DNA of 64,000 nt. It comes from Chondrilla cf. caribensis (Eukaryota; Porifera; Demospongiae; Chondrillida; Chondrillidae). Position numbers and translations under genes: made by a program. Position 1 is the stretch's first letter, and each line of letters begins with the position of its first letter. Below, in pieces: positions 20,236-64,000 of the stretch. The notes below the pieces were generated by a model. It was not told the DNA's origin. It saw only the letters and a list, made by a program, of their open reading frames with translations, and searched no databases. Location of the stretch: positions 3,996,548 through 4,060,547 of the forward strand of contig OZ026552.1 in NCBI GenBank assembly GCA_964020155.1. The letters run 5' to 3'.

Positions 20236-20270
<35 letters not shown>

Positions 20271-38541: not shown

Positions 38542-40870
38542 ATGAAAGGACCAAGGCGGAAACTGCCTCCGATCCTTTCGTGGTGCTTTCTAGCTAGTTT
38601 GCTTTCTCTCTTAACACCCGTTTCAGGACAAGGAGAAGGTGAGGATGTTACGCGAATTCACTATAGTGTGATACTTGTGTTCTACTCTTCTTCATCTGCT
38701 TTGTGTGCTCGCAGCCGTAGTCACATTCGTGTACAACCAGATCATACAAGCCAGCAGAACGGCGCGGACTACGGAACAATTCACCGCTACGAGCACGGCG
38801 AACGAGACGGTGGAGTTTACACTGAATCGAGGTGAGGGGCGGACCGAGAGGAGGAATGAGCGTACTATTGCGAACGTTTGATCATAGATCTATGGTTTAA
38901 TCGAGTGTGTTATCAGTTTTGGGTAAATCAATCTTTTATTCCAATTTTCCTGTTTGTGTGTCTTTCTAGTGCGAGTTGACAGCACCACAGGACTGAACAA
39001 CCAGCAAGCTGAAGCCTTCTTCGACCTTTCCACGACTGGTTTGTTGACCATCTCTCCAGTGAATGTCAGCTTTGAAAGCGCATTCACCTTCTTTGCAACA
39101 GTGAGTTCTTCAATGTACTGCATGGAACTCAACACAAAGATTTGACATGGTGTGCATGTGTGATAGCACAGTTAGCAGCACTGTGTTGCTCCACGTTGCT
39201 GCAGACTGTGTTTGTAAGATTCCTGGTATATTTCTTAATTACGGTAGTTATTTGTCAATAATTCACAAGACAATTAAAAACAATAGTGTGATATTCAACT
39301 CCGATTGAATTTGTCAATTCTTATAGATCAGCTTCGGACTATTGTTGATTGTATACAATTGGGAAATTCATTATAATTATAGGAAGTTTTGTCAAAGTTT
39401 GTGGAAACATATTAATCTTAGTTGATACTGTTTTGACTTGTTACAGGTACTTCTGGTTTACTTCAAATTGGCTGCCCAATTTGATATTAATAGTATTTTT
39501 CATGAAAGTTCATTTAATTCTGCAATCACATTGGAACCTGTCTAATCTGGTCATCTATGGGATCTCATTTCTTGGTTGGAATGAACAGGTGGCTGTAATG
39601 TTGAAATTGAAATATATGTAAAAACGTTGCAGATGTTTATTGCAGGACTTGATTGGGGTGACCACCTTGGGTTGGTGACTGTTAATGCAGGTTCCACTCT
39701 GTAAATAACTTAGCAATTTTCATAACAGAGATATGTGCTGTACGACGTTAGTGCATTAACTGACCTCTCATTCTGTTGTCTTCAAGGTGACGGCCAGTGG
39801 AAGTGTGTCCGGGGTTTCTGCCCGAAACACCATACAGGTCAATGTTCCAGCTGCACCTATCGTCCCTCGGTTCAATAATGACCTGTACGAATACAACGTG
39901 TCTGAAGGGGTTGTGAATGGATACACAATAGACACACTGACTACTAATGTGGATACCAGTAAGTGGAATGAAGGCAGTTCATTCACTCCCCCCATATTAC
40001 TTTGTGATTGCACCTGCTGTACGTGTTGTGTTGAGTCTTCAGTGTTGGGGATGGTCTTTATCGTCACAGCAATGCATGTGTGTGATGCTTAAACTGGGGA
40101 GTAGAATAGGTATTTTTGTTGATGTTGACCCGGCAGTGCAAATATGCTTTCTGGGAGGAGTGTATTATAAACATGGCCGTGCATGTGAAAAGGTGTCAGT
40201 CGGTGTGTTGATGAAATCAAAGTTTGAGGAAGAATAGCATTAGTGTGAAGTAAACCACCTCTTGGAGGATATCCTTCAAAAAATTTTAACTCGGTTCTCT
40301 GTCCTTTCTTATATTATCTAAGAATCCCAATATTGAATATATATGTACTTACTATGATTTGAGTCACATATTGCAGGGTGTAGATTATAGTCTTTGAATT
40401 CGTTCTTTGGTCTGATAATGTTATTGTCACTGTCTCCCTTCTCTAAAAATGGAAAAAATTATGTAAACTATCCTGACCTTTAACACTTGTAGTTTATACT
40501 GGGGAGGAGTGGTGCCTATGAATATCATTAAGAGTGTTTATACTAAATAAGGTTGTTACTATTTTTAGCTCACTTCCCTCTGTATCTACACTTGTTGTGT
40601 ATGATAATTAGTATTGGAATGTTGATGCGTGTGTGGAGTGAAATATATTATAATGCTTATTGTGGTCTGGAGAAAGGAACGTACCTTATAATAATGAAAG
40701 AGGGGAATTTTTGTAGGTTTATTTTTGTGTTATTTGGGTTTTCATTTGGTTTGTGAAAATACAACTTGAATTTTGAATCACAAGTTGCACTATGGTGTGT
40801 TAACTACGGAAATTGGGGGAGTTAAATGTAAAATGGTTGTTTATAAATGAAATGTGTTTGAGTGTGTGTT

Positions 40871-40933
<63 letters not shown>

Positions 40934-43900
40934 CTGTAGGTGTCTTTCAGTCTATTAGACACTAGCAATAAAGGTACTAATGAACACAACTGCCATTCAT
41001 AATGCACTCCACTTGTCCTCCCAACTACCAGGCACGTCACAGGTATCATACTACGTGGACCCTGATGCAGTCAGTGATGATGGTACACTGGTGTCGGTTA
41101 TTTTTGGATTCACGACAAACTCTCCAACTTTGATCGTCCTGGACAACAGGCATCTGGACAGGGAGACGCAGGCTGTTTACAACTTCACTGTCTACGTCAA
41201 CGGCTCCAACGGGATGGACTCAACCACTGTTATCATCAACCTCACTGATGAAAATGATCAGGTGCCTTACCTGACAAACACCAAGTACGTTATATGAAAT
41301 TTTGCGGATGTGGGGGATTAACACTAGAGGGTTTCCATAAGTTCTGTGCAACATACGAATCCCTAATTTGTGTGTATGTACAGTATGTATGTATGTATGT
41401 ATGTATGTATGTATGTATGTATGTATGTATGTATACGTACATCCATATGCATGTTTGTGTGTGTGTGTGTGTATGTACATTTGTACATGTGTACAGCATG
41501 TACATACAGAGATATCTTGTTAATCTACTGTGTCTCCCTTCACCCGCAGTGACACTGCACTCATCATTGCTTCTGACTCTGATGGAACCTTTGTGCTACA
41601 AGCCAGAGCCGAAGACGACGACGAGAGTGGCACTTCCAATTCACTCATCACGTTTTCCATTTCCAACTCCGTACCGTTTGCAATTCACAGCGAGTCTGGG
41701 AACATCACGGTGGATGGTACCCTGAGTGCAGGACTCTACATCATCAATGTGACTGTAACCGATAGGGGCACCCCTGCTCTGAGTAGTTCTGGAGAGTATA
41801 ACGTCACGGTTGCTCCTGCCAACAGCTACAGGCCTGTGTTCGAGCAGTCCCCCTACGAACCTAATGTAACTGAGAACCAGGTTCCCACTGCACCCATACT
41901 GACTTTCACAATTTCGGATGCGGACGCTGGTGAAGAAGGCCGCGTGACCTTCCTCACTCTGGAGGGCAATGATTCCAATCTTTTCTACTTTGACACCATC
42001 CCACAAGACTCATCCCTAGTAGTTGAGTTGTACTTGAATTCTTCGCTCGACCGAGAAGAGCAGGATACTTACTATTTGACAGTGAGCGCAAGAGACAGTG
42101 GAGAAGAGATGTTTCGTAGAACCTCTTCGGCCAACATCACTGTTACAGTGGACGACTTGAATGATAATTGTCCCATGTTCACCTCAATGCTGGACCCAAA
42201 CGTCACCTTATCTGAGAACACGGAACTCGGTCATGTTGTGTTCAGTTTTGAGGCCAGTGATGAGGACTTTGGTAACCTAACATTCACTCTTTCACCAGAG
42301 AGTACGGATTTCGATCTAGACCCAGACAGCGGTAACCTGACTGTGAATGGAACACTGCTGCGATCTCGGATGGCCAGCTACATCTTCAACGTCACTGTTG
42401 ATGATGGCATCTGTACAAATACTACCACCATCAGTATCCAGGTGATCGAGGTCAACGACAATCCACCGGTCTTTGACCCGGAGGTCCGCAACCTTAGCTA
42501 CACTCTTGATGAAAACATCACCATCCCGTACAATTTGGTCAACATCACCGCCAGTGACGATGACACTGGTTTGAGCGGTCAGTTCAGCCTGACGTTGACG
42601 CAGAACAGTAACCACTTTCGATTGGACGGAACCCTACTCGAAATTGTACAGCCCTTGGACTATGAGAACAGTACAAGACTTGTTGTCACCATCACTGCAA
42701 CGGACATGGGGGTTCCCCCTCTCAGCAGCAGCATTGATGTCACCATCAACGTTAACGACCTGAATGAATTTTCGCCTCGGTTTTCATCCGAATCCTACAC
42801 AGCTGAGACTGTGTACACTGCGGCTCAGTTCACGGAGCTTGTGACAGTGTCAGCTACAGATCAAGACGGCCGTGACAACCGGATTACATATGCACTCGAA
42901 GATGAACCCGTGTTTGTTGAAATCGTCCCTTCTTCCGGATTGATCAGGATTGGCAGTGGGAGTGTCCCACAAAACTTCTCGCAGTATGACTTCACAGTGG
43001 TTGCCACTGACAGTGGTCAGCCAATGAGGCGCAGTAGCAGGGCCAATGTCAGCCTCTCCGTGTACTCTCCCGAGAACGAATTTGCCCCCATTCTCGACCT
43101 TCCCACCTACAACGTTTCCGTTGACGAAAATGCTCCAGTTGGAACTGTCGTGTTTGTCGTCACCGTGACCGACAATGACGGGACCTCCACGCCATCCGGA
43201 CAAATCAAAGCTGTCTATCTGGAGGGCACTGACTCCGATCTGTTCAGCGTCTCTGATCCAGAGGGACCCTCAGATGTGGGGAGCTACACTGCCAACATAA
43301 CAACAAAGTGAGTATACCACACAGCCCACCTGTGAACACTGTGGGAAAAGAAACTTCCTCAGTTGTCCACAAAATGTCGTTTTGGGTTATTGTGCCTATG
43401 TTCCCACATTTAAGTAGTGGTATAATTGTAATACAGTGAATTCTCCTTGGTCATTATTGCTTTATCCAACAAACGTTTATCCACTACACTTTCAAAATAC
43501 CAATTTGATATCAACACAATAATGTATATCCAGGTAATCCACTGAAGATTGTGGGGAAAAAGAAGGTTTCTTAGTTGTCCACGAGATGTCGTTTTGTCCT
43601 GTGTTCCCACGCTGGAAGTTGTGATGTTACTCTAATGCAGTGGATTCTCCTTAATGGCCATTGCTTTATCCACTAAGCTTTTTATCCACTACACTTTCAA
43701 ATTCCCTATTTGATATAAACACAGTAACGTATATCCAGGTAATCTACAGAATTCATTAATCCACTATAATATAATATTTTTGGAAAACAAATTACAGTGG
43801 ATTAACGAGAATTCACTGTCTCAAAGTATAATTTCTAAGAATGTCAAAAGCTAGTTTTACAACACATAGACTAGTTATATATTTGTGTGTTGTTTATTTT

Positions 43901-44791: not shown

Positions 44792-47700
44792 GTGTGCGCG
44801 TGTGTGTGTACGTGTGTGTAATGTATTGCATTATAGAAATTGTTGTATGTACGTATCCTTGCTTGTATTCAACTCAACAATATTGTACAGTGTTCACTTG
44901 ATCCAAATTCCACTATTTCAGGAGCGAGTACAACCTCACTCTTGTGGTGAGCGATGGCAATGTTAGTGATTCTGCCGTTGTCATGGTTACAATTCTGGAT
45001 GGAAATGATGAAAAACCAGTGTACCTGGGCCCAACCACCTTCGAGATCACAGAGGAGGGAGATCCCCATTACATCACCACACTCAATTTCACAGATTATG
45101 ACCAGTACCCCAACAATGTGGTGAGTGTACAAGGACTTCTTTGAGATCGCTGCATCTTTTTTTGGTTTACAAGGTCTTTTTGAGCTCATTGCACTGATTT
45201 TTTTCCTGGGTGTGCTTTGACTGGTTTCAGGACAGGTTTTAATGACTCCTATGGCTATTCCCCACTTGCCCTCATTCATATACACTAGTATACAGTCAGA
45301 CCTCTTTACAATATTACCCTTGGTAGTGCTCCCATACACTAGTATACAGTCAGACCTCTTTACAGCATCACCCTTGGTAGTGCTCCCATACACTAGTATG
45401 CAGTCACACCTCTTTACAGCATCACCCTTGGTAGTGCTCCCATACACTAGTATACAGTCAGACCTCTTGAAAACATCACCCTTGGTAGTGCTCCCGTACG
45501 CTAGTATACAGTCAAACCTCTTTAAAACATCACCCTTGGTAGTGCTCCCATATACACTAGTATACAGTCAGACCTCTTTACAACATCACCCTTGGTAGTG
45601 CTCCCGTACACTAGTATTCAGGCAGACCTCTTTACAACATCACCCTTGGTAGTGCTCCCGTACACTAGTATTCAGGCAGACCTCTTTACAACATCACCCT
45701 TGGTGGTGCTCCCGTACACTAGTATTCAGTCAGACCTCTTTAAAACATCACCCTTGGTGGTGCTCCCGTACACTAGTATTCAGTCAGACCTCTTTAAAAC
45801 ATCACCCTTGGTGGTGCTCCTATACACTAGTATTCAGTCAGACCTCTTTGAAACATCACCCTCAGTAGTGATCCCGTGTTTTAATAAGCACATCTAGAAG
45901 TGTTAGAATTCACGAATTTTTAATAAATGGATATATGTTATTCACATAACTGATCATATATGTACACATACTAGAGTGTACCCCATGACATGGGTGCCAT
46001 TCAGCCTTCTCTCCTATTTCTGTAGATCACCTATTTCCTTGAAAACGGTTCAGACACTTTCTACGTTGACCGTGAATCTGGTGATCTCTATGTGAATGTT
46101 ACTGTTGACAGAGAAACAACACCATCCTTCACCATCAGTGTTGTTGCAGCCAACAATGATGTCAGCCCTCGGCTCTCCACGACGGTTGCCATAGTAATAA
46201 ATGTGGAGGACATCAACGACAACTCCCCGGAGTTTGTGAACGACACCATCCCAACCCTCAGGATCCTTGAGACCGAATTTCCAGGATTCCAGTTCTCGAA
46301 TTCTCCCATAGAAGCTGTAGACATTGATGACGATGAGAACGGCAGAGTGACCTATCGTCTGGAAGATGAATACGGCTGGTTCAACATCTTCCCCACGAGC
46401 GGTGTGATATATCTCGAGAATGACACACTTTTGGATTACGAGAACACGACTGAAGTAGTGGTTACCGTCATTGCTGAAGATCAAGGGTCCCCAAGGCTAT
46501 CCACCAACACCTCGGTCACTATTATGATTTTGAATGCAGATGACCACCAACCCGAGTTCACAAGTGACCAGTTTACATTCCGAGTTCCAGAAAATTTGCA
46601 ACCCGGAGGTCAAATTGGAAACCTGACTGCTGTGGACCAGGATCCATTCAACCAGAACTACTATTATGGCCTGTGTGATTGTACCAACTGTACCAGTGGA
46701 GAAAACACAATCCGGATTGAAAATAACGTGTTCAGTGTCGATCGTAACCTTGGTATTCTCAGACTCTCCAGTGGAGGGTTCAACTATGACAACAGTAGCT
46801 TGGTTCAAGTGTACACCTTTTGCTCTGTGGTCTACAGGGGCACCAACACCACAAATGTGACGGATATGGCAAATGTGAGGCTCGAGATTACAGATGTGAA
46901 TGAATTTGGTCCAGAGTTCATCCAATTTGGAAACCTCTACATTGTCGAAGACGCTGCTATCAACACAGTCATTGGACAGTGGGAAGCCATCGATAGAGAT
47001 CGAGGTGCAGAAACAGTGGAATACTCCATCGACATATCCGGGAACTATCTTGCTATTAATTCAAACGGCAGCATTTACACCAGGAGGGAAATTGACAGGG
47101 AGGTGGCATTGTTTAGCTGTCCTCCAGATACTTCTGGCAACTCTACCTTACTCTTTCTCGTGACAGCCACGGATCCAGCCAGCGGTGTTGAGGAGACCAA
47201 GACCGGTACTCTGATTGTGAAGGATGTTGACGACGAACCTCCTGAGTTCACCAATAGCATCTACCACGTTGAGGTGCCCGAGGATAAGAGCGTGGGAGAG
47301 ACAATATTCCGCCTCACTGCTGAAGACACTGACTGTGACATCACCCTGCGATACGAGATAGCATCATCCATCCCAGGGATGAACCCTTCAGACTATGACT
47401 TTGAAATCATCGAACTCAGCGGAGTGATAAACGTGCGAGAGGCTCTCGATCGAGAACTTTACAACAATTATCAGCTCACGATTGTGGTGAGAGACTCTGT
47501 GAATGCCAGCGACACGACTGTGGTCAACATCACCATACTGGACATTAATGACAACAAGCCTACGTTCACTCCAGCACAAAGAACGTACAGTGTCACAGAG
47601 AGAGCTCCACTTGGTCTGTACGTGGGAAGGGTGAGTGCTTCAGACCCTGACCTTGCCGAGAATGGAACATTCAGCTACGTGATGGGGACCGGGAACACTG

Positions 47701-50700
47701 GGGATGCTTTTGCCGTGAATTCATCCACGGGGATCATCACGGTGATTGGGGACATTGATCGTGAACGGACGCCCACCTTCAATCTTGAAATCTACGCAGT
47801 AGACAACAGCGTTGCTCCTATGACAGGAACGGCCGAGATCACCGTGAACATCCTGGACATCAACGACAACATCCCCATGTTCGGAAAACTCTCCTATGCT
47901 GGGTACATCTACGAGAATGAGGCAGCTGGATCCCAAGTACTCGAAGATGGGACCAATCAGACACTCTACGTGGCGGCAAATGACTCAGATGCCGGAAGCA
48001 ATGCAAGAGTGTCTTACCACATTCTACAGGACGACGTTCCTTTCCAGATCAATTCCAGCAGCGGTGTGATCACCACAACGCGGAGATTGAACTACGAAAT
48101 TGAGAGTGAATACTCCCTGACTGTGTACGCTCTTGATGGTGGAGGCTTTTCGTCTTCTCCCGTAGAGGTGACCATTTTTGTCCTGAATCGCATCGACACA
48201 ACTCCAACTTTCGAAGAAGAACTCTATACTTTCACTGTCAGTGAGGGACGAAGCAATGGTACCTTTGTTGGTGTTGTCAAGGCAACTGGTGCTTTCCCTA
48301 TCGAATATCGGCTGGATCCGAACGATGACCAACCGTTTGAAATCGATTCCACCAGTGGAAACATCACCACGACAGAGAACTTTGACAGAGAAGATGAAGC
48401 GGACTACACGATCACCGTGCAAGCCAGTATGGATGGATTTGTCACATTCTCGAATGTGTCTGTTATGGTCAGTATCAGTGATCGCAACGACGAGGTTCCC
48501 ATGTTCCTCCGATCTTCGTACTCTTTCAACATTACGGAAACCTCCTCAACTAACATCATCATCGGTTCGGTGTCTGCCACAGATAGAGATGGCACTCTGT
48601 CAATCCAGTATACGATTTCTGCTGGGGACGATGAGAACGTTTTTGATCTGGCCTGGGACGGCAGCACAGGTATCATCTTCAACAGATTGCCGGTTGATCA
48701 TGAGGTCTCCTCTCTCTACAACCTCACCATCACAGCTTCTGATGGAACTCTTTCCTCCAACGTCTCCGTCTACATCGATGTTCTCGACATCAATGACAAT
48801 CCTCCACGTTTCAACCAGTCCGAGTACAATCGGACAGTACCGGAGTATTCCCGACGGGAATATCTCGTGACGACGATGGTGGCAGAGGATCCAGATGCCG
48901 GACTGAACGGCACCGTTACTTACACCATGACACCAGTGGATCCAGTCAACGACACCTACTTCACCATCAACAACAACACAGGTGAAGTCACCGTGCTAAT
49001 GCTACCTCCCAGGGAGGAGATTGACCGGTACGAATTCACCGTAGAAGCAATGGACCGCTCCTCACCATATTACACGGACAGCACACAGCTTGTAATATAC
49101 GTTGTTGACGTCAATGAACCACCAGCGGTTGCGTCTGCCTACAATTTGACTTTGAGTGAAAACACCACTTCTGGAAATTTCTTTCAACTCAATGCATCAC
49201 ACGGGAATGATGACCCTGGAAATTCTGGAGTCCAGTACCGGCTCCAGTTCCCAATTTCCGAATCCGGAAATGGAACTGAGAATGAGACAATGACTGATGA
49301 AGTGAACTTGGCTGACTACATCACCATCAACGACACAACAGGCGTTATTTCCATCATTAGACCGTTTGACTATGAAGCTGGTGATAGGTATTTCGATTTC
49401 ACCATCATTTCCGAAGACCCCAATAATCCATCAATCAACAGTACCACTTCCATCCTACTCATCATCACAGACACCAACGACAATCCTGTCTACTTTGAGA
49501 ACAGCACCTACTTCCTTGATCTGAATGAGAGTATTGCTGAAGGCGATATCATTTTCAATTTTGGGGACGAGGTCTTGGATGTGGATGAGGTAAGTCACAC
49601 CATGTTCCGTTTCACCATTTTGAACACTTCTGCTTCGTCAAACTTTCTCGGAGTCGACTCTGATACAGGTGAGGTGTTTGTGGAGCGCCGACTCGACTTT
49701 GAGACACACCCCGAGGTGAGCATCACCGTCCAAGTATCAGATGGGATCTACACAGACACAGCCGTGCTTGACCTCACAGTATATAACGCCAATGATGGTC
49801 CCGAGTTCACTCAGCGGGTCTACTACGTTTCTGTGTCCGAAGATGCACCCAACGATACCTATCTCATCACCGTGTCGGCAATGGACCACGACAACTCCAC
49901 TGGATTTATGGGATGGATTGACGTAAATATCACCTACGGACTGATAGACGATGATGTCTTGCCTTTCACAATAGATCCAGACACTGGGGAGGTCAACCTG
50001 ACTGGCAGTCTAGACAGAGAGACGGTAGCCATCTACAACCTGACCCTCTTTGCACTGGGTAACACAGGGGTACAGAGTACAGCAAAACTTGAGGTTACTG
50101 TTCTTGATATCAATGACAACATGCCTATTTTCCTGTTCGATTCTCCAAACGCAACAATATACACAGCAACTGTATATGAAGGTGCACCGATCAGACATGT
50201 CATCACGTCTGTGCTGGCAGAGGATGCTGATGCTGGAGAGAACCAGACTGTGATATACTCACTGCAGCCCTTCTCCAACAACTCCCTGCAGCCGTTTAGT
50301 ATAAACTCTGCAACAGGTGAAATCACGCTAAGTCAACTTGTTGATCGTGAGGAAAACCCTGTAATTAACGTCACAATTGTTGCCAGGGACAACGGAACCT
50401 CTCCAATGTCGTCGTCAGCCACCCTGGTGGTCTCAGTATCAGACGAGAATGACAACACTCCAGAATTTGTCACTGAACTCATATTCGGCATTTCTGAGGG
50501 TCTTGCTGTCAACAGTGTTGGCTTTCAAATTGAAGCTGTTGATCCAGACGCAGGAGAAAATGGCACTGTGTACTACAACTGGATGTACACCTATCCGAGC
50601 GAGTGTGAAGACTTCTTTTCTCTTGACTCGAACACGGGTAACTTCACCATCACTTCCTCACTGAATATCAACATCACGAACATCAGCAGGTGCTTTTTGG

Positions 50701-53700
50701 GAATTTTTGCAAGGGACAGAGGCCAACCGCAACGGGAAACCGAGGCTGGCTTCTACATCACGATCCTCCCCGCTGCCCATGATGCTCCTGCGTTTGTCTC
50801 TGATGTGGGATTTGTGGGCAGAGTGGCAGAAGCAACTGAGATAGGAGTCTACGTGTTGACGGTCACTGCCATCCCGGATGAAGGACTGAGTGTAGAATAT
50901 GCCCTTCAGACTGACGACCCCATGCTCCCATTCGCTCTGGATTCTGAGTCTGGAGCCATCACGGTCTGTGGTGTGTTCGATCGGGAGACCACCCCTTACT
51001 TCACTTTCAACGTCACTGCCACCGATAACGGATTCCCATCTCTCACCTCCACCACGTCAGTGAGAGTGGACATAATCGACGTGAATGATGAAGAACCCGT
51101 CTTCTCGAACGACAGTTATGTCTACATGGTCCGTGAATCTGCCAGCCTCGCCTATCCCATATTCACACTGAGTGTGATGGACCGGGACATCCATCCCAAT
51201 AACATCCTAAACTTCCGGTTTCTCCCGAATGAAGAAAACCAGACGAATTACGGCACTTTCAGAATAACATCTGCTGGAGAAGTGTACCTTTTGAAGCCTC
51301 TGGATTTCGATTCTGGGCGTTTCCAATACGTCCTCAACGTATCTGTTACCGACGGTAAGTTCACCAACTTTGCCGAAGTAGTTGTGGAGTTACTGGACTC
51401 GAATGATGCGGCCCCAATGTTCTCCAACCTTCCAAACAGGATCAGCATCAGAGAGGATGCAGAGACAGGAGATGTTGTGTTCGACGTGGACGCAACTGAC
51501 CTGGATAGTCTGCGTAATGCCTTCCTGGAGTACCAGCTAGACGATCCCTACAACATGTTTGATATCAATTCCACCACCGGTGAGGTGTTTGTGGCCAGTG
51601 GAGGGTTCGACTACGAACAAGGAACGAGACAGTTTGTTCTGAGCGTGACTGTCATCGACCGACTGCCGCGTAATCTCACTGCTGAAGACCTAAACGGTAC
51701 TGACATTGCCGACTTCCTCCGCCATTATGATGCAGATGAAGGGAGACTGAACACAACCAGTGAACTTGCGATTGACATCATCGATGTAAACGACAACAGC
51801 CCGATGTTCCTTGCTCCGTTTGAGTTCGAAGTGGTTGAGAATGACCAAGCGTCAATAACAGTGGGTCGTGTGGACAGCATTGATCTCGACTCCGGTGAGA
51901 ACAGTCGGACAGAGTACAACATCACTGCAGGGGATGAAGGTCGTTTCATCATTGACCCAGTTACTGGCATCATTACAAGCATCCCCCCGTTGAACAGAGA
52001 AGTGAATTCTTCTTATTCTCTCCTGATCGTAGCTACAGATTTTGGATCACCCCGAATGAGCAGTAATCGTACCTTCCTCGTGATTGTTACAGATGCACCT
52101 GACACTCCTCCTAGATTTGCCGTCCCCGATGGTGGCTTCCTCTTTGCCAAAGTTGAAGAAAACAGTCTTTCCGCCTTTGTGATGAACGTCACTGCAACTG
52201 ATCCCGATGATGGAGACCTGACCTACTACCTTCTCGATCAGAACAAAAACTTTGTCATCAACAACCGCACAGGGGAGGTACGAACATCTCCCTCGAAAAT
52301 CATTGACAGGGAAGAAACACCTTTCGTGACAATTGGTGTTGAAGCAGTTGACTCGTCCGGTCTCACGGATACGGTGATCGTGGTAGTGGAGATTACAGAC
52401 GTCAACGATTCACCTCCAGTCTTTGGAAGATCAGATTACTTTGTCAACATCACCGAAAACACACCGCTCGACTCTCTTGTTCTCACCCTCACTGCTAGTG
52501 ACCCGGACCTGGGTACAAATGCTATGGTTAACTATGAAAAAGTGAACGGAAGTGACTTCTTTGAAATCGATCGGATTACCGGTGAGATTAAGGTGGTCAG
52601 GAGACTGTGCATCAACCACATAGACAATGCCTTCCACACCATGCTGATCCGAGCGTATGATGCTGAAAACTCGACTCTGTATGATCTCACCGAAGTCAGC
52701 ATCGTCGTTCATGACGTAAACCGCTTCACCCCGATGTTCTTGCAACCGTCTTATGTGGTCCGGATAAATCGGAACACTCAAGCAGACACAGTAATCTTCT
52801 CACACTTGTCTGTTTTCGACGACGACTACTGCACTGAGAGTCTCACGCTTTCAATTCTATCCGGCAACGAGGATAACACGTTCAGTTTTGACACTACCTT
52901 GGGTAAGATTGTGCTCAGGAGAGACATAAGTCCGGACGATTTTGACTTTGTTCTCAGAATCAGAGTGACTGATGCCGGTCACTCTGCAGTAGTCCCGACA
53001 AAATGGAGTGAAATCAACGTCTACATCCTGGTTGGTGCCGTCCTTCCCATCTCTGTTTCACTCTCTGAAGGGTTTGCCGTGCCTCCTCTTGTACGTGTGT
53101 CTTCCTCCCTCTACCAACAAGAAGTGTGGATACCGACAGGGGGGCAATTTGCTGAGTCCGTGGACGTTGAGTTCTCTCTGGGCGGTGAGGTGTTTGCGCA
53201 ACAATCAGTCCAGGTTGAGCAATCCCCTGCTGACTACCTCAAGGGAGCTGTGGCATCAGAGGTCATCCACTACAGCAAGCCTGAAGTTAAGATCGTTGTA
53301 CAGGTATTCTCGGCCGGTCACGAAGTTCACTATGTGAAGCAGACTGCTGTGTTTGCTGAGCTCTTGCCTTACGGTGAGTTGGCCGGTGAGACTACAGAGA
53401 CCGTTCGTGAGACTTGCATCACACAGCCTCCACTGTCGAGCTGCGAGCTGACTCTCATCGTTCCAGACAAGTGGTTCGAATACACAGAACTGGGCGAACG
53501 CATCGTTCAAGCAAGGTACGGTTTTGATGGAGTTGACAATGAGAAGTCCCAACTCATTCCATCAATTTACCTCGAACCGAGACCAGTCGTTGACAGAGAA
53601 GACTTATTCGTTCAAGTGTCTCTCCCTTCACATCCCATCTACCCAGGTGACGAGTTTGACATACAGTTCTCAACGAACTGGCCACATCCTGTTGCCATGG

Positions 53701-56700
53701 TAGCAGTTCACTGTTCATATGACGAGAGTATTGAGTTTGAAGAGGTCCAGTTCAACAGACTCTCTCAGGTTGTTTACGAATCGGACACCAGTGGACAATT
53801 CAGTGTGACTTACACTGACCAGCCGTATCACACCCCCCCACCTGACCTCAACAACCCCTTCCTCACAGTCACCATGGAGCTATCAGATGACGTGGAACTG
53901 ACCAATGGGACAGCTGAACTCGATTTCGAATGTGTGGTTGATTACGTTGCCGACGCAACCGGGGGTACAGTTCAATCCGGAGATCCAGCTTTCCACGTTG
54001 GACGATCGGTCTTCAACAATGGGACTTCAGTCGTGTATGCTGCTGAGAACTTTGTCAATGAACTGATACTCTACAGCGATGAGGGTACTTTGGTGAACAC
54101 CGCTGTTCTCACCGGGAACAGGGTCTCAACCAGAATTATGGGCATAGCAGTGTACGGAAATGGGAAAATCGATTACGAATACGATAATCTCACCTGTACA
54201 AGTGGTGACGATGATGTTGTCAAAGTGACAACAAACTGTGAAGAAGCCTACTTGGATGGTACAGAAAGTGAAGGATCCAATATGGCCGCCATCCACGCTT
54301 CACCAGACCGAGGGGAGAAAACGTACAGTGTCTACCTCCAAGTCTGGTATCCACGACAAATTGACATCCGTTTTGCGGACCAAACGCTCAACACTATAAC
54401 TGGCTGCGATCCCGCTAAATTCCAAGAGACAGCAATTTCTGTTGAAGGAACCTTTGTGTCCGGTACTCTCCGCAGTGGAGCTGATTTGACGTCACTCCTC
54501 AAAGACAGACTCAATTCCAGAGATGACACTGTTGCTTCTCTCGATCTCTCCAGAGCTGTACCTTATGCTGTTGGTAAGGGTGCTGGCACCACTGAAATCA
54601 TCATTGACATCAACGGGCAGACATTTTCTTCATCAAGCCTTGTGGTTACTGAAGTCGAGGCCACCATCTCAGACTTCACCATCACAGTTGTCAGCGTGAA
54701 GGAGAGCGGATTTTTCAGTTCTTCTGTGGCAGGTTCGAGCCACACTGCGTTGGCTGATATCAACATATCCGCTAACTTCACAAAGCTCTACCAGAGAGGC
54801 ATTGTGTATGCCGATGCAGTCATGAGTGATGGGAGTATTCTAGCAGTGAACAAAACGAGAGAGCTCATGTTATCTTCACTGGACATGTACACCATTGACA
54901 TTGATGATGGTGAAATTGTCGTGTACAGGCCAAGAAGCGGCCGATTCCTCCACTCACAGTGGACCACCTCCGTGTGTACACCTAGCACATTTGTCAAGAA
55001 TTGGAACATCAACGCTGGTGGTATAAGTCCACCAGTAAGTCTGAGGTTTGTGACTGCATCTGGATACAGGCTAGCTCTGGACACCTTCACCTCTCAAGTT
55101 CTCAACTTATCGTCAAGTTTGACATTCGAAATCGAACTCACGGACACTCACAATCGTACCATTTTGATTTCAAATGACCCCAGAACTATTGTGAATGTAA
55201 GCAACAACTTGGATCTCAACCGCCTGACAGCATCCGTTGGATCCAATGCAGTTGCCGGATCTGCTAATATCACCGCTTACTTTGACTATGATGGCATTGT
55301 CCTTAGTACAACCCTCAATTTGGAGCTGGTTGGCATTGCGAACTTCACAGCATCCGTTGAACTCTACCCTGAGTACTCAGACAGCAGTGACACCACCCTG
55401 TATGCACTAGCATATACATCACCACCCATCTACCAGTCTGCGTCCATAGTGGCCCAGGTGACCACTACATCCGGGGATGTCCTCGACGTGTCTTCTCGTG
55501 ACGAGATTCGGTTGAATATGGTGCAGAACACAAACCTTACCATTCGACGTGATGAAGATGGAGTGAGAGTGATTGAACCTTCGTCGAGCAAAGAACAAAC
55601 CATCACTGTTTGGTTCGGCAGCTTTTATGATTCTGTAAACGTGACTTCCTCGGATGAGGAACTGTTGATCACTCGACTATTCGAACTTGAACTGGATCTC
55701 ACCAACGACACTCTAGCTGGAGTTGTGGGAACTGAGGCCTCCATCACTGGTATTTCTGCTGAACTGTCCAGCGGTGGAATTCTCCTTGACTTCCGTCCAT
55801 ATCTGCCTTACTACCTGGATCTTCTCACGTTTAACACATCAAATTTCAACGTTTCCCGGGCAAGTCTCTCGTCAATGTCAATCCAACTTGTCGGTAATGC
55901 TCCGGGTTTGGAGACAGCGTTCCTCACCCTCCAGTACCCCCCACAAATCAACTACGTCAACGTGACGAGGAATGTGACCGTTGTCAGAAAGATTAACAGC
56001 ACAGATGCAGACGGTTTCAACATGACGGGAAATTTTACAGGTTTCAACATGACGGGAAATTTTACCAGTGTGAACTCCACCAATGGAACAGAGGATGGTG
56101 AGGAGATGTACACCACAGAGGTGATACAAGTCACTGAAATCGAGGTTGTCGTGGATGAGATGCAGCCTGTCACTGGCACTGTGGAGTACTATACCAACGT
56201 AGCTGCCGAAGTGGGAGGTGTTGACCTGGGTGAGGAGTATGGTCCACCTGCCATCGTCTCTAGTAATTCTCTCATCACCATTCCCGTCACCATGAACTTT
56301 GCCGAAGGAGATTTCACCGTTGATGCTGCGGTTGTCAGTATTCTCTATAACACAACCGGTGTGAGACTAGTGAACATACTCCCCAGTACAGAAATGAATG
56401 CCGGACACGTTTATTACTCAATCTGGCCGACAGAGGGTGTGGTAAAGCTAGGAGGCATCAGCACGGGGTTGGAATTCAGGGACGTGGTCAACGATAGGTA
56501 TCATATTGGTACAGTTGTGTTTCAAGTTCTTGAACGTGGTTCCCTCTACGGGTTTTCAGCCATTGTTGAAGTGTTGGCCGGAGCAACTCTTCCCCCCGAA
56601 GATGCAAGCGATAGTATCCTTGAACGGACAGCCGCGGGAGAGATCACCGTGGAGGATCAGGTCTTCATGGGCGGGTATTATCCACCACCTCCGCTGCCCA

Positions 56701-59700
56701 CCACTCTCCGACCTCAAGTCTGTAATTACTCCGTGCCGGGTGACTCCACTGAGGACTGTGTCTTCACTCTCAAAGATGCATTGTACGGGAGACTTCTTGC
56801 AACAGAGGCAGCCATCAACCCGATTGTGTGGACAGACGATCTTCAGGACAGGGTTGACTACGATCACAACGGAGTCGTAGACATGAGAGACATCTGGGAC
56901 CTGGAGAGAGCAGGATTTGAACTTGCTCCTCTCATTTCAGCCGTTTCTATCATCCCGGTGACTGCCGATACTTCAGATTGTCGTCTGACTCTCACTGTGT
57001 CCCTGTATCAACAATCTCTCCTGGACACGAACACTTCCCTGGTCTATTTTGGTGTATTCAGCAATGAGTACGGATTCCAGCGTTCGTTTGACAACACCAC
57101 CTTGAGCACCGGATCTCTAGTGTCGGACATTCAAGGCATCCCCAACAACTCTTACGGCGGTTGGTGGGCAGCCGAAAACCTTGGCAACAGTGTTTTCCAG
57201 GTACAGACTGAGCCAGGCCTCTTGCAAGGCAATGGTATTGGTGTGGTGGCGGTTGTCATTGCCAACAATGTGGGGACAGACGTTGTACAAAGACATGTGT
57301 CATTCTTGAATGGTCCTCTTACAGGGAATCCCGAATTCGGCAGCATGTCAACTCAGTTCACAGTACGTGGCCAAGGTGTATATGTAAACAGCACTAGTGG
57401 GTTTGATCCCTTGGAGATATTTGACATCCCGTACACAGCATACGAGTGTATCAACGAGCACGCCCCGATGTTCACCATTAGGGGTCCTTACAACCAGATT
57501 TTGAGAGAAACCGCGAGAGCAGACATTTTGCTACCTGTGAGTGCCACAGACGATGACGATGGTCCCACGGGAGAGTTGAAATATTTCATTTACAACACCA
57601 CCCAGCCCGGGCTACTCCAGATATTCGACAATGGTAGTCTTCTGCTCAACTATCCTCTGGACTATGAGTCGTACTCGACTGTCAACCTCACGATACAAGC
57701 CATCGATCAGGGTCCCCACGTGTACACCAGAAAGACTGCCACCATTGGCTACCTCATTACTGTAGTCGATGACAACGACAATCCTCCCGTACCCGAGTAC
57801 CCCTCCTACGAGGTGGTGATCGAAGAGAGATACACAGGTTTGGCCAACCTCACCATCAGAGCTAGCGATGGGGACAAGTTTAACGCTGACTACCGTGCAA
57901 TGCAATTCTACATCATCGACGGTGACCGTCCTAACAATCCTTATTTCAGCCTTGTCTCCATCGACAACACCTCGGTCCAGCTGAACGTTCTCAGAGCTCT
58001 GGACCACGAGAGCCAATCAGAGTTTAACCTCACGCTGATTGTTAACAATACCAACCCCACCAATCCACCAGGACCCACTGCCACTCGATTTCCTGTGAGA
58101 GTTCTTGTTGCTGATGTGAACGACAATCCTCCGATATTCCCTAAAGGACCCATTACGATTTTCATCTCGGAAAGCATGCCACCGAATTCTATCATCTACG
58201 TTCTCCGAGCAACTGACAAGGATTCCGGCAGCAATGCGAGAATTGACTACTTCATTGATTATGCTTTTCCCGCAAATGCTCTTGGGACTGCCCTGAATGG
58301 TACCAGACTCGAGGATGAGTATCTCCATGTCGACCCCATGTCGGGTAACGTGACTCTGTTGAGACGGCTAGATCGAGAAGGAGATATCAAGGCTCTTTCC
58401 TGCCAATTCCATGCTGAGCAAGACGGGATTGTTTTACGGGATCCTGATGAGCCTGTAACAATTGTGATACACATCATTGTCTGCAATGAAAACGATGAGA
58501 TACCTGAATTCATCGGTGTACCTTACATTTCGACTCTAGCGGAAACGGTTGGTCCGGGGGCTGTAGTTGTCACAGTGAGTGCACAAGACAGAGACCTTGG
58601 ATCTTTCTGTGCTTCTGATGCAGAGAATGAACGCCTGGACAGTGAGGTGAGTTACACCTTGACAAGTGCCGATGGGGGACCTTTCCAAATCAATTCAGAA
58701 AGTGGAGTGGTGACCATATCGAACGGGTCGCTTGACCGCGAATCAAGAGAATCTTACAATCTCATCGTCACTGCCAGGGATCGTGGAGTTCCCCCCCAGG
58801 AAGCCAACACAACTATAACAGTTACCATCACGGACGTCAATGACATGTCTCCCACATTCGATAAAGAAGTGTACGAATTTTCAGTTAACGAAGGAATCAC
58901 GACAGTTCTGACACCATCTCTGATCATAACTGATCGCGATGGTGTAGTCAGTGGTGGTGAAGTCGCAAGTGTGACCATATCTCCTTCTGGACTTCCATTC
59001 AGTATCTCTAGGGTCTCCGGTGACGTGTACAATCTGGCTGTTACTGGTCCTACTGACAGAGAAACGACGGCTGAATACAACTTCACCTTGATCGCCACCG
59101 ATAACGGAGTATCGCCGTTGTCTTCATCGGCCATTGTGATTGTAAACATCAACGACGTCAACGACAACCCTCCAAATTTCCTTGGTGAGCCGTACTATGG
59201 GAGAATCACAGAAGGGTCTCCAGCAGGTACGGTGGTTTTCCAACTTCGTGGATATGATTTGGACGGGAATTCTACCTTGAGATTCTCCAAAGTTAACCAG
59301 AGCATGAATGCTTACGATGGGTCCCTCAGTGTAGATGAAATGTCTGGAGAAGTGTACATCAACGAACCACTGTGTTACAGTGATGGCAGTTTATCAGTCA
59401 ACTTCACTCTTGGAGTCACCATAACTGATGACAATGGCAGTGGAAATGCAATCTCTTCTTCTGTCGCCTTTTCTTTGGAAGACAGCAATCTCAAGCGACC
59501 AGAGTTCATCAGAGACTCCTACATTGTGGTGGTTCCCAGAAACACTCAATCAGGGGAGGCCATCTTGACAGTGAATGCCACTGATGAAGTGTGTTCCCAC
59601 CCCCTCTTGTACAAGCTGGTAGATGGGGACGATAGTGCTTTATTCTCAGTTTTGACGGTGGACGATATCGACAGAGAACCTCCCTCTCGTTACAAACTCG

Positions 59701-62700
59701 GAGAGGTGAGAACAAATGGATTGTTGACCTCCAAAGATGTTTACTCTTTCAGAGTTGAAGTGGAGGACAGTGGATCAGCGACAACTCGTTCTAGTATGGC
59801 AACAGTGACAGTGCATGTAGGGTCAGTGCCGGCCGTTCAGATGTCCTCCACTTTTGGACTTCCCGAAGAGGACGTAGTCTCTTCTCCCTCGGCAAGATCG
59901 TTTTCACAACGCCAATTCTTCGGATACAGCAGTGATCAAGGAGTACACAGTTTTACAGCAAGTTTCGGAGGCATCAGTAAATCGTCGAATTTCACCATTG
60001 AGCCTCAACCAGTGACAGATCTTCTCACAACCATCCCAGTGGATCAACTCTTTGCTGATGATGAGTATGTGTATGTTATTGTGCAGGCCCTCAACCGTTT
60101 GAGAGGTACTCACGTCCAAGAGACCAATGTAACTGCTTCTGCTTCGTTCAACAGGGACACTTCCAGCAGTGAAACCGTTGTTGTATCTTCTGCATCGCCA
60201 ATAGAAACCATCCGCATTCCCATTCCATTGTCATGGAGAGAAATCTCCCAGAATGAAACCAGAATGGAAACAATAGTGGTGTCCGTCACAACAGGGTCCA
60301 TCACCAAGGCTCACAATGTCTCTTTGACCACATCATCCTCAGCCAACTCTGTCTTTGAAGATGTTGCCAACACTAACTATTCTGTGCTTGTCTCCCTACC
60401 GAAGCAATACCTGTACCCATCAGGCGAGTCACGCCTGTTTGTCTACACCAAGAACGAGAATAACCCCGTGACCAGTTTGGTGGTTGAATGCGATCTGGAG
60501 GACTCTTATCAATTCGACATTGCAACTGGAAATGAAGGTTGGATCGCAGCAGTGAGGGAGTCCGGGGGTAAACTGCGGATTCAAGCAAACTGGCAGTCCT
60601 CTGCTGGTTCCTATGTACCAGCCAAGCTCACCGTGCCGTTCACTGTACCAGAAGTCATCAGTAAGCCATTAGCAAGCATGTCCTGTAGGGGCATTCTGAC
60701 TGCGAGATCTCGGCCGTATATCTTCAGCAACGAGGAGTTTGAAGTCCTTGTCTCTTCTCGGGAGGAGCTCACAGTTCGTATGGGAACAGTCTACTATGCT
60801 CAGAGGGAGCTCAGTGATGTTCTGATCAGTACTAGTGCCAGAAGTCTCCTCAATACTGCTGTATTCACAGGTGTAAGGGTGGAGGATGTTGTCTCCTACA
60901 CCGGTCTGTGGGTGGACGCAATTCCGTATTTCGAAGAACTTGATAGCAGTGTCAGCATATCCTGTACATCCGGACCAGAAGTGAGCATCGAGAGGGACTG
61001 CTCCACAGTTTATTTGAGCGGAGTAGAGGAAGCAGGAAGTAGTGATGCAATGGTGAACGTATCTTTCAGCTATGGCGGGAACACTCTGATAAAAACATTC
61101 CTGTTTGAAGTTTGGTATCCTGATCTACCATTGACTGTGTCTGCCGCTGACCAAATTCTCAACCCCATCATGAACTATCGTGTTGACAAGGGAGCCTGCG
61201 TCCAAGGTTACCAGTGGACGACACTGTCCATCCAAGCAACCTTCAGAACCTCGCCGATGAGTGATGCCTTCAATGTCTCCGTTGAGTCTCTCGTCAATGA
61301 AGCAAACATACAGAGCAGTGTCAACAACATTGCATCCGTCAATGGCTTGGTTGTTCGCGGGGAATCCCCTGGTATTTCCACAATCAGTGTTAGAGACCCA
61401 GTGGACGGTAGCAGTCTTGGAACTGTGAACATCTCCGTCGTCACCACTCCAGTGGTGAACATATTGGGTACCGTCACCTACAGTGCCTCTGATATTGGAC
61501 TTTCTCCTGACAATATGCCTGTTTCACCTACCAGTGACTTCACAGCCAATCTTATCACAGATTTAAATCAAATTGATCAGAATTTTGAGTTTGTGACATT
61601 CATCTTCTTCTCGGACAACACATGGTCCAGACTGAGTGTGGGGAGCGGTCTATTCTACAATGTCAGCGAGACTGAACTGTCAGTTGACAGTTCCCGGGCA
61701 ACCGTAATCGGTGCGTTTGCTGGCTACCCGGTCACCGCTGTGTGGAGCTCCGAATGTGACGGAACTCTTTTGGAAGAACCTGTTCCTCTTCGAACCAACA
61801 TTGACAACACAGCTGCCCGTCTCTACCTGGTTGTACCCCACAACACACTGGTCCCCAGTTCTGATGTGTCACTGTCGTACAGTGTTGGACTCCCCAACTC
61901 CACCACCGTCCGCGTATTCCTCGTTACCGATAACGGCGAGAATGAAGTGGAGGTGACCACTAACCCCAATGTACTAGTGACCGTCAGTGTAGACGAAGGA
62001 GTAACCCTCACCAAACTCTCCAATGGGTCTTATCTCCTCCAGGTCACCTCTTCAGCTAATGTCTCAAATGTCGACATCACAGCCTCTATGGACACCTTGA
62101 ATGTGGTTGACAGTCAGACCATTCAGATTGTAAAATCGGATGAAATCTCTGTGTCCGTGAAGCCATATCCATCTTACCTGTCTTCTCCGAGTCTTTCGAC
62201 CCTTAGACTTGTTGGGAACTCAAACATGTACCAATATGCTCAGCTTGACGTACAGTGGGTGTTTGATACTGCCGATGGCAAGTATTCCATTCCTGTGAAT
62301 ACCAACAACTACCTCACTCTCAGTACTACAGACGAAGCGGTTGCTGAAGTGGGTGAGGACTCCAGGATCACTGTGAATAGCCCTGGTAACATGTACTTCC
62401 AAGCAAGTATCGGCCCTCTCAATGCCTCCACTCATCTCTCCGTTGTGAATGACTCCATCTACGTGATGAATGTATTGGAATTTGACATCACCACTAACTC
62501 TCTCCTTTCTGGTACTTTCGGGAGCACAGCTGCCAAGGTCAGACTGGGCCTCATGTTCAGTGACGGAACACAGGTGTTGGATTTCTACGGGAATAACGGT
62601 ACTCTTTATCCCGGACTTGTTGATATTGAATCGGATGAGGAATCGGCTGTGAGAGTAAACAACTTTACGGGTGAAGTCAGTATCCATGGTAACCTTGCCG

Positions 62701-64000
62701 GAGTGACTCAATTCAGTGTTGATTTTAACGATGAAGGATCAGTTAAACCATCGTCCGAAAGTTTCGCAGTGAATCTCCAACCAAGACTAGGTGAGGTTGA
62801 CCTGGGAGGGAGTGTGGGGGTCCCCATTCCCAGTGTGAGCGTAAACGACCAAGTTCAAGTCCCAGTTGTATTGAATGTGGGGTCCTGGTCAGTCGGGGCA
62901 TGGGAAATTGCTGTTGCATATTCTCACGCACATTTGGAATTGCTGTCGGTTTCGGTCGGCTCGGACTGGGGAGGTAACATTCTCCAACACAGTGGGACCA
63001 CCTTCCAGGGAGCCGTGCTCATCGGAGGAATTGCTGAGAACACCAAATATGCCGACAACGGTACCTTGGAGGTGGCAGTTCTCAACTTCAAGGCTATCTC
63101 CCCCACCACAGCACCAGCAGTCCTCACAGCCGAACTCCTTGTCCTCGCTGACGAACTCAAGAAGCCTCTTTCTCTTGTCACACCGAGTTTGTCCTCCATT
63201 GTTGGTGTGAATATTGACTCCTCTGCGACAATTGTGGTTGAAGCCATCCCATCTTCCTACCTTGACGTCTTCAGGCCGTCCAGGAATCCTTGTGATCTGT
63301 CCGTCCCGTGTAGCTGTGGAGACAGCAGAGAGCCGGGAGACACTAACGGGGACTGCGTGCTGAATGTTTTAGATGCTGCTGAAAACTGTGGGTCATTCTG
63401 GATTGATGTGGACCGTGACGGAGTCTGTGATCGCTATGACTATGACATCATCCTCAAAGCCGCTTTTTATGATCTCCCGATTTTGTCTGACTACACCATT
63501 TCCACCATTGATTCCAGCAACTGCTATTTCAAGGTATCTGTCCAACTTGCCATGAGAGGAAGAAGAGAGATAGACAGCAGTTTGTTTGATGTCGCCGTGC
63601 TCCTCTCTCATACAAATCAGTCGTTCCTGACACAATTCGACAGTTCAACCATTAGAAACACTTTGGGGGAGATAGCAACCCCCACCCTTACCACCACAAG
63701 TAGTGTGAACCTTCGAGCAGTCAAAGCTGCTTACGTTGAAGACGGTCTCTACCAGGTTGAAATGAACTCCAAATTACTCCTGGAAGACGTTGGTGTCGCC
63801 TTGTATCTTCTCCCAACAGGTGGAAACGCTGTCCAGTTTGTGCGCAACAATGCAGTACCGCCAGTCTATCCTGAACCTGTTGCCTTCTCGCTCCTGGGTG
63901 AGGACTTCTCCTACCCTCTTGGATTCACTCCGCTCGATAGTACCACATTCACTCTCACATCCGACAACTGCATCAATGACGCAGTACCTGTATTTTATCC
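38542..64000 (+). CDS. Giant coherin/TMEM132-like cadherin (3' end outside window)
   Basis: A cell-surface or secreted adhesion protein, at least about 7,010 residues in the window. Exons 38542-38638, 38715-38831, 38970-39100, 39787-39958, 41032-41284, 41550-43307, 43963-44132, 44554-44725, 44922-45120 and 46026 to beyond 64000; phases agree throughout and the last exon was sampled at several points in one frame. The start has a signal peptide (WCFLASLLSLLTPVSG). Then: about 30 cadherin repeats with DxND/LDRE motifs (39787-53030), a TMEM132-like module (53040-56230), a cohesin-like domain (56240-56650), a dockerin-like Ca-binding pair (56720-56935), about 7 cadherin repeats (57440-59820), a second TMEM132-like module (59820-62790), cohesin-like (62790-63250) and dockerin-like (63320-63475) domains. 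N-glycosylation sequons are abundant. No membrane segment is seen yet. Cadherin plus cohesin defines the 'coherins' of sponges and choanoflagellates; the TMEM132 match is by motif. Confidence 0.92.
40860..40932. repeat. (TG)n microsatellite in a cadherin intron
   Basis: About 35 TG units, roughly 100 bases before the acceptor at 41030-41031. Confidence 0.95.
41383..41432. repeat. (TATG)n microsatellite in a cadherin intron
   Basis: Twelve or so GTAT/TATG tetranucleotides in the intron 41285-41549. Confidence 0.95.
43434..43818. mobile_element. Nested or duplicated CAGTGAAT-type MITEs in a cadherin intron
   Basis: Begins CAGTGAATTCTCCTTGGTCA after TA (43432-43433) and ends in GAGAATTCACTG at 43818. 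A second near-copy of the start lies at about 43638 (GCAGTGGATTCTCCTTAATGG), so it looks like two tandem, partly deleted elements. Confidence 0.65.
44249..44423. mobile_element. CAGTGAAT-type MITE, intact ends, in a cadherin intron
   Basis: CAGTGAATTTTTGTTAATCCG at the left and its partner CGGATTAACGAGAATTCACTG at the right, flanked by TA (44247-44248, 44424-44425). ~175 bp, non-coding. Confidence 0.75.
44726..44800. repeat. (TG)n microsatellite forming a cadherin donor site
   Basis: GT repeat starting at the intron's first base (AAG|GTGTGTATGTGTG), running to GCGTGTGTGTGCGCG. Confidence 0.93.
45275..45885 (+). repeat. 54-bp minisatellite in a cadherin intron
   Basis: About eleven copies of a 54-bp unit containing CACTAGTATACAGTCAGACC, TCTTTACAACATCACCC and TTGGTAGTGCTCCC. 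The unit is 18 codons long so a frame stays open through the array, giving a repeated PYTSIQSDLF translation. No splice sites or link to the neighbouring exons support coding. Confidence 0.92.
53040..56230 (+). other. TMEM132-like module A (cohesin-like and Ig-like folds)
   Basis: The stretch VSLPSHPIYPGDEFDIQFST (about 53610) begins a cohesin-like fold. It is followed by LVNTAVLTGNRV (54087-54122) and LQVWYPRQIDIRFADQTL (54337-54390). The pair 'NTAVLTG ... VW-P ... I/L-x-I/V-x-x-D-x-x-L' is the hallmark of the TMEM132 family ectodomain. Ig/BIG2-like repeats then run to about 56230. The order matches TMEM132. Fold assignments rest on motifs, without profile scores. Confidence 0.7.
56240..56935 (+). 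other. Cohesin-like domain A and dockerin-like motif A
   Basis: A beta-rich segment (ITIPVTMNFAEGDFTVDAAV, then FRDVVNDRYHIGTVVFQVL) resembles cohesin domains. About 25 residues later a paired Ca-binding motif follows: first loop PGDSTEDCVFTLKDAL is degenerate, second loop VDYDHNGVVDMRDIWDL fits D-x-D-x-N-G-x-V-D-x-x-D well. Dockerins carry two such loops. Confidence 0.6.
57440..59820 (+). other. Cadherin repeat block B (~7 EC repeats)
   Basis: Starts at ECINEHAPMFTI (57447). Repeat ends at VDDNDNPPV (57765), ADVNDNPPIF (58110), CNENDEIPEF (58482), TDVNDMSPTF (58830), NDVNDNPPNF (59150), SNLKRPEF (59484). Confidence 0.88.
59820..62790 (+). other. TMEM132-like module B
   Basis: Parallel to module A: VSLPKQYLYPSGESRLFVY (about 60391), LLNTAVFTGVRV (60845-60880), FEVWYPDLPLTVSAADQIL (61105-61160), then Ig/BIG2-like repeats. 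Same order and similar spacing as 53040-56230 but clearly diverged. Confidence 0.7.
62790..63475 (+). other. Cohesin-like domain B and dockerin-like motif B
   Basis: VQVPVVLNVGSWSVGAWEIA, LELLSVSVGSDWGG, VAVLNFKAIS resemble a bacterial-type cohesin. It is followed by PGDTNGDCVLNVLDA and DVDRDGVCDRYDYDII, two Ca-loop-like motifs of dockerin type. The second copy keeps the first loop better than copy A. Confidence 0.65.

Follow-up and report, generated by a model that had tools for sequence, protein, structure and literature searches.

The window analysed here, a 64,000-nucleotide stretch of the genome of the sponge Chondrilla cf. caribensis (C7:3996548-4060547 of a 137 Mb assembly), carries a giant open reading frame on the plus strand, gene A, which extends from 46026 to 63998 as 5,991 codons without a stop and runs past the window to C7:4067802, for a total of 8,410 codons. 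Pfam searches with this frame recover cadherin repeats, two copies of the TMEM132 fourth domain, weaker matches to the TMEM132 fifth domain and a cohesin near 63 kb. An upstream frame with cadherin repeats (41524-43308), which may belong to gene A, together with a signal-peptide-like start near 38542, suggests that the 5' end of the gene also lies within the window. Just 5' of the giant frame is a tandem array of 11 copies of a 54-base unit (45277-45877), which is open in more than one frame. Elsewhere in the window, two minus-strand frames at 15613-22317 with family A DNA polymerase, POLQ helical, DEAD/Helicase_C and HTH_61 domains constitute a DNA polymerase theta-like gene, a minus-strand frame at 36426-37793 contains an F-box-like domain (E 3e-12), and a 991-codon plus-strand frame at 7295-10267 has a Tudor-like match (PTM_DIR17_Tudor) under the cut-off.

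Gene A encodes a giant cadherin carrying a large composite module, in which the TMEM132 domain set is followed by a further segment and then by a classical cohesin, a dockerin and a domain that we term X. Three complete copies are present (A1 and A2 in the window, A3 just outside it), along with a fourth, partial copy, which is interrupted by an apparent intron and then by N bases of the assembly (C7:4067500-4074100). The initial annotation had proposed that a single frame joins cadherin repeats to TMEM132-like, cohesin and dockerin domains; this is indeed the case, its coordinates are accurate, and the four ranges that it singled out coincide with real domains. Across the genome the TMEM132 fourth domain occurs at six regions, three in gene A, two in a second gene (gene B) and one in a third (gene C). 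The six surrounding stretches can be aligned with one another as a single unit of some 1,385 residues at 18-26% pairwise identity; for the second copy of gene B (B2) the alignment stops at the end of its frame, and the remainder of B2 lies in another exon-sized frame. The module opens with an N-terminal region and a CR-like region; then come, in order, cohesin 1, the TMEM132 fourth to sixth domains, the further segment, which bears a PYPxY motif, cohesin 2, a linker, the dockerin with its two calcium loops, and X. The features of gene A within the window are as follows:

38542..38832, plus strand: likely first coding exon of gene A, an open frame with a predicted signal peptide (MKGPRRKLPPILSWCFLASLLSLLTPVSGQ), recognised by eye
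41524..43308, plus strand: upstream exon-sized frame with six cadherin stretches (Pfam Cadherin, E 1.8e-60)
46026..63998, plus strand: giant open frame of gene A, with 22 + 6 cadherin stretches inside the window
53031..57464, plus strand: module A1, whole unit, 1,478 aa, colinear with five other copies from the same genome and with homologs
53589..53966, plus strand: A1 cohesin 1 (the TMEM132 third, cohesin-like domain), profile-profile match to cohesin 2
54072..54356, plus strand: A1 TMEM132 fourth domain (NTAVLTG ... VWYP), PF16070 E 2.4e-19
54378..55052, plus strand: A1 TMEM132 fifth and sixth domains, PF23486 E 0.021 and PF23487 E 0.052, with alignment to vertebrate TMEM132
55053..56201, plus strand: A1 further segment (PYPxY motif), not in TMEM132, from the module alignment
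56202..56666, plus strand: A1 cohesin 2 (classical cohesin), from alignments and family-profile matches to PDB cohesins
56667..56714, plus strand: A1 linker, free of convertase motifs
56715..56936, plus strand: A1 dockerin, loops DSTEDCVFTLKD and DYDHNGVVDMRD
56937..57464, plus strand: A1 domain X with two cysteines, end of the module, from the module alignment
59823..63983, plus strand: module A2, whole unit, 1,387 aa
60363..60719, plus strand: A2 cohesin 1
60828..61127, plus strand: A2 TMEM132 fourth domain (NTAVFTG ... VWYP), PF16070 E 1.2e-11
61128..61799, plus strand: A2 TMEM132 fifth and sixth domains, PF23486 E 5.2e-6 (27 bits; cut-off 28), the sixth by alignment
62775..63239, plus strand: A2 cohesin 2
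63240..63275, plus strand: A2 linker, free of convertase motifs
63276..63485, plus strand: A2 dockerin, loops DTNGDCVLNVLD and DVDRDGVCDRYD
63486..63983, plus strand: A2 domain X, from the module alignment

A profile built from the six modules of this genome retrieves vertebrate TMEM132 proteins with E-values of 3.3e-33 to 3.8e-37, in support of the common origin of TMEM132 and the cadherin modules put forward in the initial annotation. This relationship is itself already published: according to PMC6030884, the cadherins known as lefftyrins, coherins and hedglings contain the full set of five TMEM132 domains in unchanged order. The alignment with TMEM132 covers at most positions 170-636 of the 1388 of the module, to which five of the six copies add a weak stretch earlier in the module, and TMEM132 thus corresponds to the first half of the module. 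Within this half PF16070, the TMEM132 fourth domain, is detected in all six modules (best E 2.2e-19), followed in order by the fifth and sixth Ig-like domains (PF23486 in four of six and PF23487 in two of six, at E-values up to 10); the whole fifth-sixth stretch is also alignable with vertebrate TMEM132. The Pfam model TMEM132_3rd matches one of the six modules. Profile-profile comparison of cohesin 1, the equivalent of this third domain, with cohesin 2 gave a probability of 58.6 with the six sequences and 95.4 with the whole family, against 1.1 or less for control windows touching neither cohesin. PDB searches yielded eight weak matches for cohesin 1 alone, none of them a cohesin, and no match for the TMEM132 half of the module. 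The alignability of cohesin 1 with a classical cohesin of the same unit supports, at the level of sequence profiles, the assignment of TMEM132's own domain as a cohesin. TMEM132A-E resemble the module in having the CR, the cohesin-like domain and three BIG/Ig-like domains in order, and differ from gene A in being single short proteins that lack the further segment, cohesin 2, the dockerin, X and the cadherin repeats. TMEM132 proteins are single-pass and carry PP1/WIRS motifs on their cytoplasmic side; in gene A the corresponding end falls in or beyond the N bases of the assembly.

In whole-genome Pfam scans Cohesin had no matches and Dockerin_1 four weak ones, all under the cut-off; single-domain profiles being too weak here, we used family alignments. 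Cohesin 2 shows both the jelly-roll fold and the sequence profile of PF00963, and its family profile matches cohesins in the PDB. A first AlphaFold2 model was of low confidence and was used for the cohesin fold alone. In structure comparison the matches listed covered only the cohesin part. As to the dockerin, 10 of 15 family members match PF00404 (best E 2.8e-6), and the family profile retrieves PDB dockerins (best E 2.8e-9) ahead of EF-hand proteins. It follows cohesin 2 in all 24 modules examined, weakened in a few, at a distance of 24 to 56 residues (20 modules). Both calcium loops fit the strict pattern in 21 of the 24, the departures being P0002m2, P0003m2 and P0014m2 from related proteins described below, and A1 has a threonine at loop position 3. 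Among the four first and last loop aspartates, three are invariant in 15 of 15 aligned sequences and the fourth nearly so, at 24-40% identity to the first sequence. The presence of a dockerin adjoining a cohesin in one animal protein, as originally claimed, is borne out by family profiles and loop patterns. A calcium-dependent contact between cohesin 2 and the dockerin, the other part of that claim, is plausible from these sequence features.

The first calcium loop of the dockerin often has a cysteine at position 6 (as in DxNGDC), where most dockerins have a glycine. Modules of the gene B type have three more cysteines just before this loop, which might form a disulphide cap.

Three kinds of proteins contain the whole module. 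Besides the gene A cadherin, these are the product of gene B, a receptor phosphatase resembling lefftyrins, and that of gene C, which is mucin-like, membrane-spanning and cadherin-less:

Gene B, C7, minus strand: 8,908-codon frame with two modules and many cadherins
Gene C, C21:3519917-3530752, minus strand: 3,612-codon frame (L016, L017, L025)

Coherins are defined by cadherin and cohesin in one chain, a combination that gene A shows. Lefftyrins combine LamG, EGF, cadherin, FN3, a transmembrane segment and a tyrosine phosphatase. On the N-terminal side of gene B there are frames with Laminin_G_3 (E 8e-6, under the cut-off) and EGF_laminin (E 6e-20), and behind it frames with fn3 (E 0.006, under the cut-off), a hydrophobic, apparently transmembrane segment seen by eye and Y_phosphatase (E 3e-21); the phosphatase and N-terminal frames are linked to gene B by position only, and from this domain content we take gene B to be a lefftyrin. 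In gene C, Ser/Thr-rich repeats span about 2,000 residues and are accompanied by one module and a transmembrane segment; there is no cadherin match, and a weak dystroglycan (DAG1) match, under the cut-off, covers the membrane region. A search with the window frame recovered six giant proteins of 5.9-7.9 thousand residues (P0001-P0006). P0001 is 89% identical to gene A over the queried 1,501 aa, and the other five are 21-26% identical and have three modules each. P0002 and P0003 share the three-plus-one order of modules with gene A and likewise end inside their fourth copy. The six-module profile additionally recovered P0007, a cadherin fragment carrying the whole module, and a search with gene C recovered P0014, a Ser/Thr-rich protein with two modules and no listed cadherin domain.

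Two trees (FastTree and IQ-TREE) were computed from the fourth to sixth domains of 33 of the 42 aligned segments, P0001 included; nine were dropped because the region is absent from them. TMEM132 is placed differently in the two, beside the lefftyrin-type first modules in FastTree (0.90) and beside P0007 in IQ-TREE (38). Given these conflicting placements, and the existence of cadherin-less carriers of the whole module such as gene C and P0014, the derivation of TMEM132 from a coherin-like giant by loss of its cadherin repeats is only one candidate history. Gene C groups with P0014 in both trees (87 in IQ-TREE, 0.95 in FastTree). The first module of gene B (B1) groups with module 1 of P0004-P0006 at 0.19 in FastTree and 80 in IQ-TREE, and for B2 one tree gives A3 as its neighbor (0.35), the other module 3 of P0004-P0006 (80). 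As the trees disagree on gene B, modules were typed by best match instead. By this measure B1 is clearly the top match for each of the nine modules of P0004-P0006. For P0004 and P0006, in which the sequence beginning at the third linker or dockerin was compared as well, that sequence has its best match in the gene B tail exon (E 9e-28 and 2e-31); hence the 11 motif-bearing B-type modules discussed below belong together, a grouping with which the trees agree only partly. Modules 1, 2 and 3 of P0002 and P0003 have A1, A2 and A3 respectively as their best match in six of six cases and group with them in IQ-TREE (96, 91 and 71), which indicates that the three-copy layout is old. Typing is clear for P0002-P0006; for the second module of P0014, B1 (99.5 bits) scores above C1 (75.0).

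The linker between cohesin 2 and the dockerin is the principal site of basic motifs of the convertase type. In gene A, gene B with its tail exon, gene C, P0002-P0007 and P0014 (P0001 was left out as nearly identical to gene A), we counted 31 R-x-[KR]-R motifs in 61,496 residues, the frames being taken from stop to stop with some intron residues included; 27 of these fall within the 24 linkers, which make up 1,045 residues or 1.7% of the total. Shuffling of whole proteins gave a mean of 2.9 motifs in total and a maximum of 8 in 200 shuffles, and shuffling within linkers a mean of 2.1 as against the observed 27, which none of 1000 shuffles reached; the counts are not independent, as P0004 and P0005 are close and the modules are paralogous. 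Motifs occur in 15 of the 24 modules: all 11 of the B type, two of three of the C type, the single one of P0007 and one of nine of the A type. The last is A3, whose motif is not conserved in its P0002 and P0003 counterparts; the linkers of A1 and A2 have none. The second module of P0014 has lost both the motif and one dockerin loop. The predicted model of B1 has a low-confidence stretch (residues 152-180), and each of its two motifs falls inside this stretch or on its border; a convertase P-domain is present in the genome. Of 20 modules examined, 18 have a cysteine-free cohesin 2, but the segment preceding it contains one or two cysteines in 7 of the 12 examined that bear the motif. B-type modules have, after the predicted cut, four cysteines (three before the dockerin and one in it) plus two in X, numbers that allow them to pair among themselves. 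From this distribution of cysteines a disulphide spanning the predicted cut is unlikely. A separate RRRR run occurs in the C-terminal FN3-like region of P0014 (residues 3927-3930) and recalls the loop at which furin acts in FN4 of PTPRM (PMC9800333).

These features raise the possibility, to which we assign a probability of roughly 45%, that cohesin 2 and the dockerin form a calcium clasp whose linker is cut in the lefftyrin, mucin and P0007 types and left uncut in A1 and A2. The cohesin 2 and dockerin of a module would bind each other via Ca2+, in line with the very strong mutual binding of their bacterial counterparts noted in PMC6030884. In the secretory pathway a furin-like convertase would cut the linker in the lefftyrin, mucin and P0007 types, after which the clasp would keep the ectodomain on the membrane part. 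A precedent is offered by the LAR phosphatases, whose ectodomain is cleaved by a furin-like protease while the two resulting parts remain non-covalently joined (PMC8711739). In chains with several modules, a dockerin would head every inner piece and a cohesin would close it, which would make head-to-tail relinking or exchange of partners possible. Because only one of nine A-type modules has the motif, the cut cannot explain the module in the gene A family; there A1 and A2 might act as permanent intrachain clasps or as trans linkers, and the cut would apply only to A3 among the gene A copies read. The motifs in the relatives point to a clasp over a cut, and not to the cellulosome-like scaffold with which the initial annotation had compared the pair.

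It is also conceivable, if somewhat doubtful, that cohesin 2 instead binds the dockerin of another molecule, whether that molecule sits on the same cell, on a neighboring cell or in the matrix, giving rise to calcium-dependent networks in which the convertase sites set the length of the pieces. Such linkage in trans is compatible with the uncut A-type modules, partners could be supplied by the three kinds of carrier proteins in one genome, and every inner piece between cuts would have a dockerin and a cohesin as its opposite ends; however, within one chain just 24 to 56 residues separate the two domains, and the resulting high local concentration favors binding in cis. A further alternative, which we judge unlikely, is that the two domains no longer bind each other and serve as structural spacers, so that the convertase cut releases the ectodomain. 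The loops of P0002m2, P0003m2 and P0014m2 that depart from the strict pattern and the threonine at loop position 3 of A1 would fit such a decay, but the calcium ligands are kept at sequence identities of 24-40% and the dockerin follows cohesin 2 in every one of the 24 modules, few of them weakened.

An origin of the architecture by misassembly, or by read-through fusing separate genes, is extremely improbable. The joins were read from genomic sequence, and there are N bases in the assembly just downstream; against this stand the 8,410 stop-free codons, the 89% identity over 1,501 aa of P0001, which comes from a different source, and the same three-plus-one order in P0002 and P0003, whose modules pair with their A counterparts in all six cases. 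Misassembly as the origin of the frame was rejected on the basis of its stop-free length and the matching layout of P0001-P0003.

Returning to the calcium clasp over a cut linker, the closest parallel to its gene B version is provided by the LAR-RPTPs (PMC8711739), which are likewise receptor phosphatases with an arginine-rich convertase site and a non-covalently held ectodomain, the last of these being our proposal for gene B; what differs is that the clasp proposed here is a cohesin-dockerin pair. Bacterial and archaeal cohesin-dockerin pairs, cellulosomal or not, differ from the present case, in which both domains adjoin in one animal adhesion chain with a convertase motif between them in 15 of the 24 modules. 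The lefftyrins, coherins and hedglings of sponges and choanoflagellates resemble the modules described here as cadherins with the five TMEM132 domains in order, and differ in that the part of PMC6030884 available mentions neither a dockerin nor a convertase linker in them. None of the open papers among the matches listed deals with a dockerin or a convertase linker in these cadherins, and the domain lists of Nichols 2012 may include a dockerin. What is apparently new is the whole unit in three kinds of proteins, the alignment of cohesin 1 with cohesin 2 and the near-confinement of convertase motifs to the linker.

We know of no function that has been shown for animal cohesins or dockerins. TMEM132 has been associated with deafness and panic disorder. 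According to PMC6030884, dockerins are undetectable in vertebrates, and partly for this reason it was left undecided there whether the TMEM132 cohesin makes a strong contact. A more far-reaching scenario, which we consider tentative and rather less than probable, is that giant cadherins and a receptor phosphatase of early animals were made as single chains, cut by convertases between a cohesin and its dockerin and held together only by this calcium clasp of bacterial type, their strands rupturing and relinking under force, and that TMEM132 is the remnant half of such a module, which kept one cohesin and lost the clasp. With a dockerin beside a cohesin in the module shared with TMEM132, and a cut motif in all lefftyrin-type modules examined, what had been a matter of homology becomes a question for the bench, namely whether the pair binds, whether the linker is cleaved and whether the ectodomain is retained. 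The clasp idea would thereby give TMEM132 a concrete ancestral mechanism to test.
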